47,702 nucleotides of DNA from Aphanocapsa sp. GSE-SYN-MK-11-07L (GCA_019359715.1 JAHHGS010000100.1:1-47702); one strand, 5' to 3'; counted from the first letter of the stretch, positions 21,838 through 28,357 are shown. The notes: generated from the sequence alone by a model not told the origin. A program made the numbers and translations.

Positions 21838-22167
21838 CTACCAGAGCAGGCGAACCGGCGGTGTAGCTTTTGGTTTGGGCTGAGGCACAGGTTCAGGAAT
21901 CACTTCAGGCTGAACTTCTACCGGCGGAGGGGCTGGCGGCGCTGGTAAAGTGACTGGCTGATTCTGAGCCACCGAAGACAACAACTGATCGGATGGGGGT
22001 TGAGCCGGGAAAAATAGCGGCGGAGCAGCCAAAATCGGGTTACTGCTGGTTATCAGACCGCCAGTTGTATCAGTCGTAAACTGAGCCTGCGCAGGTTTGG
22101 CTGCCTGCATCCAAACGGCTGACGAGATGCCAGCCAAGATTGCTGCTAAGACAAATCGATGATTCAT
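21838..22167 (-). CDS. Small proline-rich exported protein, unknown function
   Basis: A 109-residue protein with a signal peptide (hydrophobic LAAILAGISSAVWM, cleavage near AKPAQAQ). The mature chain is short and ends in a Pro/Val/Glu-rich tail with PAPPAPPPVEVQPEVIPEPV and PQPKPKATP. Such tails are unstructured and could span the periplasm or contact the wall. I chose the ATG at 22167, preceded by an AAAGG site, over one 14 codons upstream that would add a charged non-signal leader. It lies in a leftward run with the next two genes, so it may belong to the same envelope module. No enzyme motif is seen. Confidence 0.62.
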   Translation of the reverse strand: MNHRFVLAAILAGISSAVWMQAAKPAQAQFTTDTTGGLITSSNPILAAPPLFFPAQPPSDQLLSSVAQNQPVTLPAPPAPPPVEVQPEVIPEPVPQPKPKATPPVRLLW

Positions 22168-22221
22168 AAAGTTCGACCTTTGTTCAAAGAAAATACTGGA
22201 AACCCTCAATTGAGTTTGGCG

Positions 22222-22665
22222 TTACTTGTTCTCTTTCAGTCCCTCGGAAAGTTGGGACAGGAAATTGAAAATTGATAAAAACTCTTTGGGGGGGTTCCCC
22301 AGGTATTCATCATTGCTGGCCTCCACAACTGCATTATAGGCTTTGATTGTTTCCAGCAGCCGCCCCCGGTTGACCCGGTTATCCTGGGTTAAGCCCTTCA
22401 TTTTATCGAGCAATGTTTGCGCTAGTTCCCGTGGAGGGGCACCTGGTGGGGTGGTCAAGGCTGTGACAATCCGCTCAGCAGCGGTGTCTGGGTCAACCGT
22501 TTCTCCGGCTGGAGCGGGTGGAGATGCCTCTGGAGTTGGCGGCGCTGTCTCCAGAGTTGGAGCTAACGGCATTGTTTCTTGAGCCAGCGCAGAGAGAGGA
22601 AACTGGAGGGGGAGGGCAATCAAGCCCAAGCATAGACTTGGCCCCAATAACGCACGGTAGTTCAT
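22222..22665 (-). CDS. Secreted alanine/proline-rich protein, unknown function
   Basis: A 147-residue protein with a signal peptide (hydrophobic core LGPSLCLGLIALPLQF, cleavage near ALAQE). A Pro/Thr/Ala linker follows (about residues 32-55), then a helical domain of about 90 residues with no cysteine. RNRGRLLETIKAYNAVVEAS-like segments and FLSIFNFLSQLSEGLKE suggest a compact helical bundle. The family is not recognised. It sits 54 nt before the proline-rich gene and 69 nt after the predicted barrel gene at 22735-24165, consistent with an operon. A periplasmic location is expected. Confidence 0.62.
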   Translation of the reverse strand: MNYRALLGPSLCLGLIALPLQFPLSALAQETMPLAPTLETAPPTPEASPPAPAGETVDPDTAAERIVTALTTPPGAPPRELAQTLLDKMKGLTQDNRVNRGRLLETIKAYNAVVEASNDEYLGNPPKEFLSIFNFLSQLSEGLKENK

Positions 22666-22734
22666 AAATTTCTGCCTCGATTGCTTCTGATTGAAAAACC
22701 AACGGAACTCAACGGAACTAATGAATCTAAAGGT

Positions 22735-24165
22735 TTAGAAACTAAATCCATAGCCCACCGTGAGTAGAAAGCGGGGAGGAGAGCCTGCATTACCCGTCAC
22801 ATCTGCAACGGCGGGAATGACGATAAATGGAACATTCTTGATCGGGGCGATCGCAAACCCCAAATCCAGGTCTTGACCGTTCCAGTTGGTAATAAAGGCG
22901 ACTTGTTGAATCACCTGCAGAGCAGCACTGCCAAAAACGTTAATGCTGTCAGTGTCAGTCACTTTGATGACAGTTGGCGGCGTAAACAAGTTGGTGATGC
23001 TGCCAAACCGGCCGGAACCTACCCCAACTGACAAGGTTAAAAAGCTGAGGGGTTTGGTCGGATCTTCTCTAAGCGGGAAAATCTTACTCACAACCCCATA
23101 GACGCTCCTGGGGCTATCTGTATTGCCAAATTTGATCGCATTTTCCACCCCGACGGCGATCGCCGTTAAATGGGGCAAGCGGCGGTGCACCTTAAAGCTA
23201 AATCCACCGCTGGAAAATGGCGTATTGTTGATGCCCGTAAACGAGTTAACAACAACTTCTAAGCCAACATACTTAAACGGGTCGCCAAATCCGGCTCCAA
23301 ACCCAACTCCACCGTCAATCTCGTCATCAAAGCGGGTGCGAGACTGCAAGCCTGCCACGACGAATAAGTCTCTCCATTGAGCCCCAAAGGCAACCGGCGT
23401 TGTAATACTCATGCCAGTGATTACCTGGGTCAGCCCCAGACGAGACGCGAATTGGAGGTCACTCGGTGAAATTTTAATTAAATACTTTTCCTTCAAGGAA
23501 GTCGTTTCAGCGGTCGTTGCCTGAGCCATTTCAGCGATTTTTACCCCAGGCAAAGCATCGGTGGGGGCAGCGCTAATCTCTGATTGAGGGGTGTCAAGGG
23601 GGGCTAAGTTGACTGCTTGAGTATTGGCGATCGCCAGGTCCGCGATCGACTGAGCCTGCATCGGGACATTCGATTCTCCAGTCTGCCCAGCTTGTTGATT
23701 TGCTACCAATCGTTGGCTCGGCGCTTGATCTGAGACTGATAAAGCTGAGGCGACCAGCAATGCAACGGGCTTGGCATCCGTAGGCGTTTGAGCCGGTATC
23801 TCGCTGCTCGCAACCAAAACAACTTGACTGACCTGTTGCCCAACCAATCCTGGCAGGTTGGTTGCTGGAGTCACGTTGGCTGTTTGAGTAACACCATCTG
23901 TTTGAGTAACACCATCTGTTTGAGCAACAGACGTTCTCTCTGCTTGGGCAGGTAGACTCTCACTACTGGTGGCAGCAATCAAAAGTGCCTGTCCGGCTTG
24001 TTGCCCGACGAATCCAGCCTCATTTCGTTCAGCGATCGCTGCCTTGGCCGGCAATAAACTACTGCTGCTGGCAACTAGGGCGATCGCAACCAAGGCTGCC
24101 CTTAACGGCTCTGACAGCTTAGTTGACTTTAATTGTTTAATCTTCTCTGGCTGATAAAAACTCAT
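22735..24165 (-). CDS. Putative outer-membrane beta-barrel protein with repetitive N-terminal region
   Basis: A 476-residue exported protein. A long signal region ends near LLPAKAAIA. Residues of roughly 45-220 are low-complexity, rich in Ala, Gln, Thr and Val, with degenerate repeats of the type GFVGQQAGQALLIA, GLVGQQVSQVVLVAS and LVANQQAGQ. They also include a DGVTQT tandem. Residues of roughly 225-476 show alternating hydrophobic/polar beta strands and end in GYGFSF. A C-terminal aromatic residue like this is the usual recognition signal for barrel insertion. The natural reading is a small outer-membrane barrel with a periplasmic linker, but no family could be named. It is likely the first gene of the leftward group 24165-21838. 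Confidence 0.68.
   Translation of the reverse strand: MSFYQPEKIKQLKSTKLSEPLRAALVAIALVASSSSLLPAKAAIAERNEAGFVGQQAGQALLIAATSSESLPAQAERTSVAQTDGVTQTDGVTQTANVTPATNLPGLVGQQVSQVVLVASSEIPAQTPTDAKPVALLVASALSVSDQAPSQRLVANQQAGQTGESNVPMQAQSIADLAIANTQAVNLAPLDTPQSEISAAPTDALPGVKIAEMAQATTAETTSLKEKYLIKISPSDLQFASRLGLTQVITGMSITTPVAFGAQWRDLFVVAGLQSRTRFDDEIDGGVGFGAGFGDPFKYVGLEVVVNSFTGINNTPFSSGGFSFKVHRRLPHLTAIAVGVENAIKFGNTDSPRSVYGVVSKIFPLREDPTKPLSFLTLSVGVGSGRFGSITNLFTPPTVIKVTDTDSINVFGSAALQVIQQVAFITNWNGQDLDLGFAIAPIKNVPFIVIPAVADVTGNAGSPPRFLLTVGYGFSF
23881..23929 (+). repeat. 18-bp tandem repeat inside the barrel-protein gene
   Basis: TGTTTGAGTAACACCATC occurs twice in perfect tandem (23881-23898 and 23899-23916). 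A third copy follows that matches for about 13 bases with one change. It is in frame and encodes a duplicated six-residue unit (DGVTQT) on the minus strand, a sign of recent slippage in the low-complexity region. Confidence 0.85.
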
Positions 24166-24573
24166 ACACCATACACTCCTCAGAATCTTAAGTTTTCAGC
24201 TCTAGGTCGGCTTAAACCACCGCTTATTCCGATCGCAATCAGGCCTTGCCTAGAGGCTTTTTGAAAACAGCAACACACCACAACAGTCTATTTAAGAGCA
24301 AAGACTGCAACATGTCCTGGCATCTTACATAGACTTTATCGAGTAAAGCAAGTTTTTTATAGCGTTTCGCGCTGGCAGCAATTACAGCTATTTTTTGAAA
24401 GCTTTTCAGCACAAGGTTTTCAAAACACAACTGAAACGTAATCTAAGTAAGGATTGCTACACAGTAATTTTAAAGCCGATAAGATTTCCAAAATTAAGCA
24501 GTTTTATCAAACAAAATGCTTGCAAAATCCTGTTTTATAACTGCTTAATCGCTTTAAGTTTGAAACAGGTTCA
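24166..24573. other. 408-nt gene-free interval between the two large barrel genes
   Basis: AT-rich sequence with only short frames on both strands, none with a ribosome binding site or recognisable product. It holds the putative terminator of the upstream leftward gene (24494-24548) and presumably the promoter of the gene starting at 24165. The two barrel genes are therefore probably separate transcripts. Confidence 0.45.
24494..24548 (-). terminator. Putative terminator of the 728-residue barrel gene
   Basis: A 10-bp inverted repeat, TTAAGCAGTT/AACTGCTTAA, encloses an AT-rich loop that itself has complementary AAACA/TGTTT runs. On the minus strand the hairpin is followed by TTTT. It is about 25 nt past the stop at 24574. 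The stem is AT-rich and the loop is long, so efficiency is uncertain. Confidence 0.5.
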
Positions 24574-26760
24574 CTAAGGCTTTTGTGACCCTCCAAACAG
24601 CCAGTGAATATTGAAACCGACGGTTGGATCTTCTTGGGCAACCAGCCCGCCAACTGGCGTGTTTTGCCCCGCCGCATTACTGCCATATAGATCAAATCCA
24701 AGGTTGAGTTTCGGAATCACATACCGAAAGCCGGCGCTCCAAACGCTCTGTTCTCCAGTAATCAGGGGCGTAAATTCGCCAATGAACTGCAAGCCTTCCC
24801 AAATTTGGTAGTTAATTCCCAACCCAACCCCAACTGGCGTCGTAAACGAGATTAAGCCAACTTTGGGGTTTAAGAACAGCGCCAACTGCGGAATCGGCTG
24901 ATAGGTAAACGGTAGCTCGATAAAGCCTGAGGTTCTGCTCCGCCCCTCACGGGTGACGATTCCTTGGGCGTAGGCTGCCTTAATTGCCAGCGAGAATGGG
25001 TCTCCCTGGGTTTGATCTAAAAAGCGAAGTTTCGTCGCCAAGCTGATTGTGAAATCTGCACTGTAGTTAATTGACTCGATCAGGTCTACACCTGGCCCAA
25101 GTTGTTCGCCACTTACCTCAAGTTGAGCATCGTTGGCGATGCCGTAGGCGAAGCCAAACCCTGTGCCGGAGCCAATTCCGGCTCGGAAGCGCAGCATTCC
25201 AGGCAATAAGGTGTTAGCACTGGTTAGCGTCAGCCCTTCTAAAAGGAGCTGGCGATCGCGCTCTGTCAAAGGCACCCTTGGGCCACTGCGAAAGCTGGCT
25301 TGGTAGTTTTGGCCAATATCAGGCGTAAACGTCAGCCCAGCTACCAGTGCCACTTGGTCGCCATCTGGCAAATAAGCCAGCAGTTGGCTGGCTGGGGTCG
25401 CACCAAAGGCGTTGGTCGCGTATAAATTTAGGCCAACGGCTGGGTTAATTAAATAACGGGTGCCAACGCTCCAGACTGGCTGTTTAATAATTTCGCCGCT
25501 GTCAGAGCTAATGGTGTTACCGCCAGGGCCAAGCGGCAGATTCAGGTCTGCAAAAAAGCCTAGGCGCTGTAGGGGTTGCCAACTTAAACCCGTGCCGAGA
25601 TAAAATCCTGTTCCGTAGAAGGAAGCATCATTAAAGGTTTCGGGGAAAAAGGCGATCGCCGGCGTGAAGTGAAGCTGGAGCTTCGAGTTAAAGCTGTAGG
25701 TAATTGGGAACTTGAGGGAACCGGCGATCGTGGCGTTAGTTGTCGTGTTGCGGGGATCTAGGTCAGTTGTAAAAACACCAGAACCAGTCCGAATACTCAA
25801 ATACTCGACCGAGCCACTCACTGCTAAGGTTAAGTGTTTCTGCTTCAGCAATTGGTACTTAAAGTTAGGAGCAATACCGACAAAGCTGAATTCTTGGGTG
25901 GTCAAGCCCTGTACTGTCCGACCGAGCGGATCGTCATAAAACGAGAACGACAGCCCCAACTGCAATTTATCAGTGACGCCGCCATCCACGCCAAAGTAGA
26001 AAACTTCTCGTCCACTGCCTCCCCGACTGACCTGACTTTCTTTCGGAAAGTTGCGAATGCCGCCCGAAAAATAAAGTCCGCCCGCTGGCAGTTGATTCGC
26101 CGTCTCCAGATTAAACAATCGAATCGGTGGCTGCTGAAGGGGGGTAAGTTTGAACTCTTCTACCTTTGAGTCGGTCGGCGAGTCAGGAGCGGCTGGCGCA
26201 GTTGAGTCAGGGGTGACGGGTGAATCAGGGGCAGGAGGCACACCCTCTGGCGATTGATTCGCAGGGGTTTCAGTCTGAGCTTGAATTGCACCAGTTTCAC
26301 CCGGCAATTGCTGGGCAGGCGTGCTGCTACTAAGGGAAGTATCGGCAGCCGGCTGCTGATCGGCAGGAGAGCTACTGACGACTGAGGAATTGGGTACAGG
26401 CGTAATCCCTGGTGTGAGTTGCGTGGGAAGTGAAGCTAGAGTGAGGATCTGCCTAGCAACCACCTCGGCGACAGAGGTGGTTTTAATCTCTTCGAGCGGA
26501 GGAGCATTGACAGTAGGCGGGATCAGTTTAGGAGTTTTAGTCTCCAAGGTGACTTGCCCTTGGGGCTTATCCGACTGACCATTGGTCACGGGTTGAATCA
26601 GCCTTGCTTTGCCTTGCGGAGCAATAACTCCCAAAGTCTGTTCCGTTGGCTCGTACCGTTGACTGTTGGGAACTGGCGTCATGGACTGGGCAAAAGATGT
26701 AGCGGGTAAGCCCAGAATCCACAGGCAGGTCAGCCCGGTAGAAAATCGATAAAACGACAT
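24574..26760 (-). CDS. Large putative outer-membrane beta-barrel protein
   Basis: A 728-residue exported protein. The signal peptide ends near ATSFAQS. Residues of roughly 25-217 are low-complexity, rich in Pro, Ser, Thr, Gln and Ala (for example DSPVTPDSTAPAAPDSPTDS). From about residue 217 onward there are many amphipathic beta strands with Gly and aromatic residues at strand ends (FSGGIRNFP, FYFGVDGGVTDKLQLGLSF, LQLHFTPAIAFFPETF, WSVGTRYLINPAVGLNLYA). The apparent strand pattern repeats twice, suggesting two barrel halves or a large barrel. I could not assign a family. It is the first of a run of leftward envelope genes and is preceded by a hairpin with flanking direct repeats. Confidence 0.68.
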   Translation of the reverse strand: MSFYRFSTGLTCLWILGLPATSFAQSMTPVPNSQRYEPTEQTLGVIAPQGKARLIQPVTNGQSDKPQGQVTLETKTPKLIPPTVNAPPLEEIKTTSVAEVVARQILTLASLPTQLTPGITPVPNSSVVSSSPADQQPAADTSLSSSTPAQQLPGETGAIQAQTETPANQSPEGVPPAPDSPVTPDSTAPAAPDSPTDSKVEEFKLTPLQQPPIRLFNLETANQLPAGGLYFSGGIRNFPKESQVSRGGSGREVFYFGVDGGVTDKLQLGLSFSFYDDPLGRTVQGLTTQEFSFVGIAPNFKYQLLKQKHLTLAVSGSVEYLSIRTGSGVFTTDLDPRNTTTNATIAGSLKFPITYSFNSKLQLHFTPAIAFFPETFNDASFYGTGFYLGTGLSWQPLQRLGFFADLNLPLGPGGNTISSDSGEIIKQPVWSVGTRYLINPAVGLNLYATNAFGATPASQLLAYLPDGDQVALVAGLTFTPDIGQNYQASFRSGPRVPLTERDRQLLLEGLTLTSANTLLPGMLRFRAGIGSGTGFGFAYGIANDAQLEVSGEQLGPGVDLIESINYSADFTISLATKLRFLDQTQGDPFSLAIKAAYAQGIVTREGRSRTSGFIELPFTYQPIPQLALFLNPKVGLISFTTPVGVGLGINYQIWEGLQFIGEFTPLITGEQSVWSAGFRYVIPKLNLGFDLYGSNAAGQNTPVGGLVAQEDPTVGFNIHWLFGGSQKP

Positions 26761-26858: not shown

Positions 26859-26962
26859 CAAAAATTGGTAGCGGTATTCAAGTAATGATTTAAGGGAGTG
26901 TGAGCGAAGCCCACACTCCCTTAAATCATTAAAAATTTAGGACTATCCAAAAATTGGTAGCG
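26859..26962. repeat. Hairpin palindrome flanked by 15-bp direct repeats (possible MITE/REP-like element)
   Basis: CAAAAATTGGTAGCG is found at 26859-26873 and again at 26948-26962. Between them is a perfect 20-bp stem (26883-26902 pairing with 26912-26931) with a 9-nt loop, AGCGAAGCC. No U run follows on either strand, so it is not a plain terminator. Strong palindromes flanked by direct repeats in intergenic DNA are typical of small non-autonomous elements. It lies between the CobO-like gene and the large barrel gene. Confidence 0.8.
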
Positions 26963-27036: not shown

Positions 27037-28170
27037 TCAAAAATCAACGCCGCGCTTGAGGTCAATCCCTTTTTCAGCGTAGTGTTTGTGGCAAACCATC
27101 TCCGAGTGAATGCTGGCTAGATCAAAGTAAGCAGGCGGAGTTTTACAGCGCCCGGTAATAATAATTTCCGTTCCTTTCGGTTTGCGTAAGAATGATTGGA
27201 CAATTGGCTCTTCTGGCAGCAGTTCTAGATCAACTGTCGGGTTGAGTTCATCTAGAATAATTGTCTTGTAAAAACCAGAGGCGATCGCTGTTCTGGCAAT
27301 TTCCCAGCCTCGTTCTGCTTCTACATAGTCTAGTTCCTGCTGCTGGCCCCGCCAAACAATTGCATCACGCCCGCACCGCTGGTGATCGACCAAACTGGGA
27401 TAGCTTTGCTGGAGAGCGGCGATCGCGGCATCTTCGGTATAGCCACTGCCGCCTTTCAGCCACTGCATAATCAGGACTCGATGGGATTTATCCTGACCTA
27501 TCCCGCGCCCAATCGCTTGCAGGGCCTTACCCAAGGCGCTAGTAGACTTGCCTTTGCCGGCCCCGGTGTAAATTTCAATCCCCTCAATCCCTTGGTCAAT
27601 CGCGTGAGGATGAAAATGGGGCTTCATCTCTGAGTGCAAATCCGCTACATCCAGCAGCGGTTGCGGCGCCCCTCGCCCGGTGGTAATAATTTCTAACTGC
27701 TCTGGTTTTTGCTTCAGGGCATGAGTCACTTCTTCAATCGGCAGCAGCCCCAAATTCAGGACTGGGTTAAGCTCATCTAAAACCACGACCGAATAGAGTC
27801 CAGAGGCGATCGCCCCTTTGGCAATATCCCAGCCTCGCTGCGCCTCTAAGCGATCAAAGCGGGTAATTTCCTCGGCGTTAAAAAACTCGGCTCGCCCCGT
27901 TCGCACCTGATCAATCAAGTGCGGAAACCCGCGCTGGAGAGCCTCGATCGCCGCATCTTCATCGTAGGTGCGGCCTGGCCCCTTTAAAAAGCGCAGCAGC
28001 AGGACTCGCGTCTGCCAGGACAAACTGATGCCCAAACCAATCGAACGCAGCACCACGCCCAGAGCCGCCTGCGACTTGCCCTTGCCCGCTCCATCGTAGA
28101 CATGAATCTGCCCGATCATCCGCTCTGGGCGAACTTGAGCAGTCCGAATCCCAATTCCCGCTCGTGTCAT
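27037..28170 (-). CDS. Tandem-duplicated CobO-type P-loop protein (corrinoid adenosyltransferase family)
   Basis: A 377-residue protein made of two related CobO/BtuR-like domains. Each half has a P-loop (GAGKGKSQAA near residue 25 and GAGKGKSTSA near residue 203). Each then has a YxEDAAI segment, an RGW(D/E)IA helix, a Walker B-like (V/I)(V/I)LDELNP, an ITGR element and a LHSEM or IHSEM ending. Single-domain CobO/BtuR enzymes adenosylate cob(I)yrinate or cobalamin as homodimers, so this fusion may form its own pseudo-dimer. Similar double-domain proteins may be common in cyanobacteria, but their activity is uncertain to me. The ATG at 28170 was chosen over a TTG five codons upstream because it has a GAGG site about 9 nt before it. 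No other cobalamin gene is nearby. Confidence 0.82.
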   Translation of the reverse strand: MTRAGIGIRTAQVRPERMIGQIHVYDGAGKGKSQAALGVVLRSIGLGISLSWQTRVLLLRFLKGPGRTYDEDAAIEALQRGFPHLIDQVRTGRAEFFNAEEITRFDRLEAQRGWDIAKGAIASGLYSVVVLDELNPVLNLGLLPIEEVTHALKQKPEQLEIITTGRGAPQPLLDVADLHSEMKPHFHPHAIDQGIEGIEIYTGAGKGKSTSALGKALQAIGRGIGQDKSHRVLIMQWLKGGSGYTEDAAIAALQQSYPSLVDHQRCGRDAIVWRGQQQELDYVEAERGWEIARTAIASGFYKTIILDELNPTVDLELLPEEPIVQSFLRKPKGTEIIITGRCKTPPAYFDLASIHSEMVCHKHYAEKGIDLKRGVDF

Positions 28171-28357
28171 AGCCGTCAGCCTCAATCATGAACGCTTTGG
28201 GGAGCAAGCCTTGCAGAGGCTGAAACACCAACTTGCCTAGCCCAGCAATGGGTCTACTTAGCAAGATTTTAGCATTCAGCTTTGATCGCTCGATTTGATT
28301 AGACGTTTACATTCTGGATCGATTAGAGTTTGAGGCGAGGGATTCAAGGAGACGAGG

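Follow-up and report, generated by a model that had tools for sequence, protein, structure and literature searches.

Four consecutive genes on the minus strand of a contig from Aphanocapsa sp. GSE-SYN-MK-11-07L (GCA_019359715.1, JAHHGS010000100.1:1-47702; this whole stretch of 47,702 nucleotides is referred to as the window) encode proteins with signal peptides. The locus raises the question of whether the four genes form a single envelope module, in which outer-membrane barrels pair with periplasmic partners, as was proposed in the original prediction. The four exported genes are real, yet they are not one module. Genes B and C belong to a conserved two-gene pair, gene A encodes a different protein that adjoins it, and gene D encodes a possible second partner of B. 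The genes are longest open reading frame (ORF) calls, and signal peptides were assigned by visual inspection or with a crude rule:

24574..26760, minus strand: gene A, 728 amino acids, exported, predicted double-barrel outer-membrane protein, separate from the B-C module
22735..24165, minus strand: gene B, 476 amino acids, exported, predicted barrel protein, central gene of the conserved module
22222..22665, minus strand: gene C, 147 amino acids, exported partner of B
21838..22167, minus strand: gene D, 109 amino acids, exported, proline-rich, ends RLLW, possible second partner

The minus-strand ORFs and their readable signal peptides bear out the claim of four consecutive leftward genes for exported proteins. 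The predicted cleavage sites are LPATSFA-QS in A, LLPAKA-AI in B, PLSALA-QE in C, and AKPAQA-QF in D. The length of D is counted from an ATG; a TTG start at 22209 gives 123 amino acids. The reported spacing of 54-69 nucleotides was also recovered, with 69 nucleotides between B and C and 54 between C and D. These distances are compatible with an operon of B, C, and D, whereas the 408 nucleotides between A and B put A apart. Promoter and terminator scans found fewer sites than in shuffled sequence.

The C-terminal 230 residues of B define a protein family that was found in 112 of 291 genomes and 47 of 128 genera of a class-level cyanobacterial sample. The B barrel is thus present in more than a third of the sampled cyanobacterial genomes, usually with an exported partner encoded next to it. 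In a phylum-level sample the matches were confined to the same class. Searches with the single sequence of window B matched proteins from other genera with expectation values (E) of 6e-58 and weaker, and the comparison with the family profile, in which window B is included as a member, gave an E of 2.2e-89. A first scan of genome contigs with B alone returned no match, and no B relatives were found in viral contigs.

The neighborhoods of B homologues, including loci L104 and L107, were fetched for a survey of partners. The gene 3' of B is on the same strand in 83 of the 84 B genes that have a downstream ORF, with a median gap of 40 nucleotides, and its product is usually exported. The partners are of three main kinds, called YN (40 loci), W (27), and CHAT (11), with six others; the classes were assigned by profile for YN, by motifs for CHAT, and by the last residue for W. 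The YN partners have a helical C-terminal domain with the core AIxAYNxIV. The W partners are small proteins with W or F at the C-terminus, and a DUF4114-like exported protein is commonly encoded downstream of them; plasmids searched with a W-type B gave no match. The CHAT partners are exported caspase-like proteins of 500-630 amino acids. The HxxTH and LSAC motifs, which contain the His and Cys residues, are intact in all of them, and the two partners compared with the Pfam model contain a complete CHAT domain (PF12770, E of 4e-74 and 7.5e-61). Enzyme domains were not recognizable in YN or W partners. None of the Pfam and NCBIfam models tried covers B or the partners of these two kinds, and annotation with these libraries therefore leaves all three hypothetical. 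We conclude with high confidence that B and its downstream partner are paired, and that they form an undescribed conserved two-gene module of cyanobacteria.

The kind of partner follows the phylogeny of the barrel. Mapped onto a tree of 84 barrel domains, the kind of partner requires only six changes, compared to a mean of 37.4 changes after shuffling, and none of 200 shuffles gave a number as low, although the figure is inflated by the relatedness of the sequences. The CHAT-associated barrels form one side of a branch with a weak support of 63, and the W kind accounts for two changes. Window B branches close to the base of the tree's W/CHAT side without strong support, and the barrels closest to it by path are those of L143, L135, L134, L136, and L139. 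The gene pairing and the co-variation of partner and barrel point to B and its partner forming a physical pair. In some loci the arrangement is more complex. The second B gene of L171 is followed by a YN partner and then by a CHAT protein, so both kinds can share a locus, and in L107 (1363-9536) a trio of B, partner, and DUF4114-like genes is duplicated in tandem, and a transposase-like gene separates the two copies. In one lineage (L056, L057, L058, L071, and L072), a COP23-like exported gene (PF14218, 2e-34 in L056) and a Ser/Thr protein kinase gene are located immediately upstream of the B-CHAT pairs.

Which kind of partner does the window encode? Gene C lies on the same strand immediately 3' of B, 69 nucleotides away, and its product has a signal peptide. 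Single-sequence search had left C as an orphan, a status that was overturned by a profile built from B neighbors:

22234..22470, minus strand: YN helical domain of C, core TIKAYNAVVEASN, profile E of 4.5e-7, 38% identity to the L139 partner

The E of 4.5e-7 was obtained with a YN profile trained without C in a set of 862 ORFs, in which all the ORFs below 1e-6 were neighbors of B. This set was biased, since the profile seeds had been picked beside B, and the test was therefore repeated on 28 whole genomes with a profile that included C. All 21 YN matches with an E below 1e-8 were next to B on the same strand, except for one in genome G157, where B is at a contig end; there were none in genomes without B or in those with W- or CHAT-type B alone (G093 and G194). 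BLASTP aligned C to the L139 partner over 112 amino acids (E of 9e-19). By sequence, C is thus identified as the YN-type partner of window B. The earlier statement that none of the four proteins belongs to a nameable family holds for B, C, and D in Pfam and NCBIfam, where nothing significant was found (the best match of D was TonB, E of 0.087). It has to be amended for C, which the profile alone places in a wide partner family, and for A, which weakly resembles DUF5777.

The same genome (G000) also contains the wreck of another pair. On contig C93, at about 27382-28334 (L069:8883-9835), a truncated B end precedes pieces of a CHAT partner that lie in two reading frames and lack the stretch with the His and Cys motifs. 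B-CHAT pairs occur in same-family relatives such as G003, G006, G012, G017, G019, G021, G023, and G025. The genome therefore has a YN-type B and the remnant of a CHAT-type B.

Both A and B had been proposed to be outer-membrane barrels, which is probable. B was divided into two parts:

22738..23418, minus strand: predicted C-terminal barrel domain of B, residues 250-476, terminal FSF, the region of B that is shared among cyanobacteria
23419..24040, minus strand: low-complexity N-terminal arm of B, about 200 amino acids following the signal peptide

A long low-complexity N-terminal half was attributed previously to both large proteins. It was confirmed for B, the family of which has a median of 193 amino acids ahead of the barrel, whereas in A it makes up only about a quarter of the protein. 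The C-terminus of B is GYGFSF, as had been noticed, and F is the typical last residue in this family (55 of 85 members). A structure model of B, built from four sequences and of low confidence, is a meander of antiparallel strands. Its top fold matches are FapF, with a template modeling (TM) score of about 0.52, and other 12-strand barrels with scores of about 0.5. Based on these matches and the C-terminal F, B is likely to be an outer-membrane beta-barrel of about 12 strands, preceded by a long disordered arm at the N-terminus.

Many partners share the tag NxS-D-[ITV]-[TS]-G just after the signal peptide, and in L126, L128, and L145 it is repeated several times. The pattern occurs within the first 110 amino acids of 29 of 83 first-downstream proteins, compared to two of 636 other ORFs. 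It is common to W partners, some YN partners, including those of the barrels closest to window B, and at least one CHAT partner (L144), and is thus present in proteins with unrelated C-termini. C does not have the tag. A possible version of it is in D:

22048..22083, minus strand: possible NxSDxTG tag of D, QFTTDTTGGLIT, TTDTTGG by regular-expression match

D ends with RLLW, which resembles the W-ended partners by eye only, and single-sequence search found no relatives of it. As a suggestion, D could represent the tagged half of a partner that was split, and it is a possible second partner of B.

How might the pair function? It may be that B exports its dedicated partner or anchors it at the cell surface, an explanation to which we assign slightly less than an even chance. 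The partner would cross the inner membrane by Sec and be recognized by B, perhaps through the NxSDxTG tag in the W, CHAT, and some of the YN lineages. It would then be threaded through the barrel or held by it, so that the payload, which is the helical domain of YN partners, the small W-ended protein, or the CHAT cysteine-protease domain, could be displayed on the cell surface or released from it, often in an exopolysaccharide or exosortase setting. In the window the partner would be C, and D might be a second one. Export or anchoring is favored because FapF likewise operates as a barrel that has a long, flexible arm and is dedicated to exported proteins encoded with it (PMC5557850).

FapF of the Pseudomonas Fap system is a 12-strand outer-membrane barrel with a periplasmic N-terminal region and Sec-exported substrates, and secretion requires a periplasmic cysteine protease (PMC5557850). 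FapF is the top fold match of the low-confidence model of B, and B has a long non-barrel N-terminal region. The B module resembles Fap further in that Sec-exported partners are encoded together with the barrel, in the presence of a cysteine protease (C39-like FapD in Fap, CHAT in one lineage of B), and in a biofilm-matrix setting. In contrast, a profile search of PDB sequences, including FapF, showed no sequence similarity of B to FapF. The coiled coil, trimer, and helical plug of FapF are not demonstrated for B, nor is amyloid for its partners, and the CHAT and C39 proteases belong to separate peptidase families. In type Vb two-partner secretion a barrel gene is also next to the gene of an exported partner, and the conserved N-terminal stretch of some B partners is another similarity; however, Pfam searches of B and of the partners tested detected neither Omp85/POTRA nor haemagglutinin TPS domains. 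It is a less probable extension, and a somewhat unlikely one, that the module is an unrecognized outer-membrane export or display system, with one barrel family that moves or anchors its partner, payloads exchanged during evolution among a helical protein, a small matrix protein, and a caspase-like CHAT protease, and the short mature N-terminal tag as the recognition signal. Protein passage across the cyanobacterial outer membrane is poorly known, and the B module provides a concrete, testable candidate.

Several results speak against export or anchoring by B. The B model is poor, with a mean predicted local distance difference test (pLDDT) score of 45.7 and a predicted TM (pTM) score of 0.49, which makes both the barrel fold and the likeness to FapF weak. 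The beta-amphipathicity of B reaches only a z-score of 1.4, B matches no known outer-membrane family, and a PDB sequence search with B returned chance matches only. Most YN partners do not have the tag, and that of D is not significant by profile. Exopolysaccharide genes adjoin a minority of the B loci, and there are none in the window. We infer the surface location of the partners, and periplasmic roles would fit the gene pairing equally well.

The polysaccharide genes bear on another explanation, in which B would be a pore in the outer membrane that passes exopolysaccharide or small solutes. The partners would then be periplasmic or surface accessories, such as a gate, a plug, or lectin-like or matrix proteins, rather than cargo. 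Cyanoexosortase A, Wzm/Wzt exporter, and WcaI-family glycosyltransferase genes adjoin several B loci. Downstream of the YN partner in L158 are genes for cyanoexosortase A (TIGR03763, 213 bits with a cut-off of 150) and its associated protein (TIGR04153), and genes that look similar by sequence follow in L152, L154, and L155. L135 contains Wzm/Wzt-type ABC exporter genes, and L134 a glycosyltransferase. The oligosaccharide porins KdgM and VhGalP are also among the fold matches of the low-confidence B model. Nevertheless, we consider a sugar pore rather unlikely, given the small proportion of loci with polysaccharide genes; the only constant neighbor of B is the partner, the kind of which changes with the barrel clade, and a CHAT protease would be an odd accessory to a sugar pore. 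The B-YN pairs located directly upstream of cyanoexosortase A genes recall PEP-CTERM sorting, whereas B and C of the window have no adjoining exosortase. A 2025 study of cyanoexosortase B (CrtB) describes the passage of PEP-CTERM proteins across the outer membrane as unclear (PMC12188702).

The CHAT partners, with their intact catalytic motifs at 11 B loci, could instead indicate that B is a surface substrate or scaffold on which the partner acts, for example by cleavage of the B arm, in a proteolytic or signaling relay. The long flexible arm is nearly always present in B, and the protease requirement of Fap secretion (PMC5557850) fits such a role. The relay is improbable, as most partners, which are of the YN and W kinds, have no recognizable enzyme domain. 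The partner in the window is not a CHAT protein, and in this genome CHAT is represented beside B only by the decayed remnant. The favored explanation remains export or anchoring of the partner by B.

Gene A has a different organization:

26152..26688, minus strand: low-complexity Pro/Ser/Thr-rich linker of A, in the N-terminal part
25306..26151, minus strand: first barrel repeat of A, residues 204-485, starts LFNLETANQLPAG, 12 predicted strands
24577..25263, minus strand: second barrel repeat of A, residues 500-728, starts LTLTSANTLLPG, 12 predicted strands

The C-terminal 520 residues of A are an internal duplication; in a profile comparison the two halves aligned over 211 columns with a probability of 99.4 and an E of 9.3e-22. 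Both halves are retained in distant genomes of 1.7-1.8 megabases (Mb), in which the matches cover residues 219-709 and 247-724, and the sequences identify A as the product of an old tandem duplication. The alignment profile is strongly beta-amphipathic (z of 5.3 at 175 degrees, compared to -0.7 at 100 degrees). An AlphaFold model based on 22 sequences has a pLDDT of 86.8, a pTM of 0.81, and 12 strands in each half. A is therefore likely to form two tandem 12-strand barrels in one chain. A single barrel of 24 strands was considered since Foldseek aligned A over its full length to 22-strand TonB-dependent receptors at an E of 1e-9, but the TM scores of these alignments are only 0.17-0.26, with root-mean-square deviations of 15-27 Å. 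Two barrels are preferred because a single large one would be expected to superpose far better on these receptors. The halves are repeats of each other, and the DUF5777 model, which is matched by A relatives, has 247 positions, approximately the size of one half, making the single barrel improbable. No Pfam plug domain was matched by A, and PDB sequence searches with it gave chance matches only.

The resemblance of A to the DUF5777 membrane beta-barrel family (PF19089) has an E of 7e-4, with 19.4 bits for the whole protein and 21.2 bits for the barrel part, under the Pfam gathering score of 23.1. Half of the A relatives (11 of 22) match DUF5777, with a best E of 2e-8; window A differs in its score below the curated cut-off, its tandem duplication, and its variable N-terminal extension. 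In L118, L101, L113, and L022 a pentapeptide-repeat-like region precedes the barrels in place of the linker. No relation between the DUF5777-like A and B was detectable (hhalign probability of 6%).

The distribution of A decides whether it belongs with B. A relatives were found in 32 of 58 related genomes. They include same-family genomes of 2.1-2.8 Mb (Thermosynechococcus is among the named records), the more distant ones of 1.7-1.8 Mb, and Calothrix, Rivularia, Leptolyngbya, Nodosilinea, and Phormidesmis. Among most close relatives A is present without B, and its neighbors vary. The exceptions are Rivularia MS3 (L104:5931-9578) and Calothrix parasitica NIES-267 (L107:1363-9536), in which A and B are adjacent and divergently oriented. 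A single envelope module of A, B, C, and D would account for four consecutive exported genes on one strand and for this adjacency, but A and B do not adjoin at the other loci examined and are separated by 408 nucleotides in the window. The four-gene module is thus very unlikely. Of the envelope module as proposed, the part that stands is a barrel with an exported partner, conserved across cyanobacteria as the B-C pair, and A has to be left out of it; correspondingly, gene order in relatives is conserved for B-C and scattered for A-B.

Other genes and elements were observed around A. A GH3-family gene is located directly 3' of A or overlaps it in three genera (L118:9579-11261, with a PF03321 match of 3e-70, L101:9595-11352, and L082:2789), and is absent next to window A. 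Upstream of A, positions 27037-28185 encode a tandem-duplicated cob(I)yrinic acid adenosyltransferase-like (cobO-like) protein (NF005647, 745 bits), and in G009 a gene with 86% identity likewise precedes A. A near-perfect palindrome at 26883-26931 (AATGATTTAAGGGAGTGTGGGCTTCGCTCACACTCCCTTAAATCATT) lies between A and the cobO-like gene of the window. It is present in a single copy in the genome, which rules out a repeat family, and it is perhaps a terminator.

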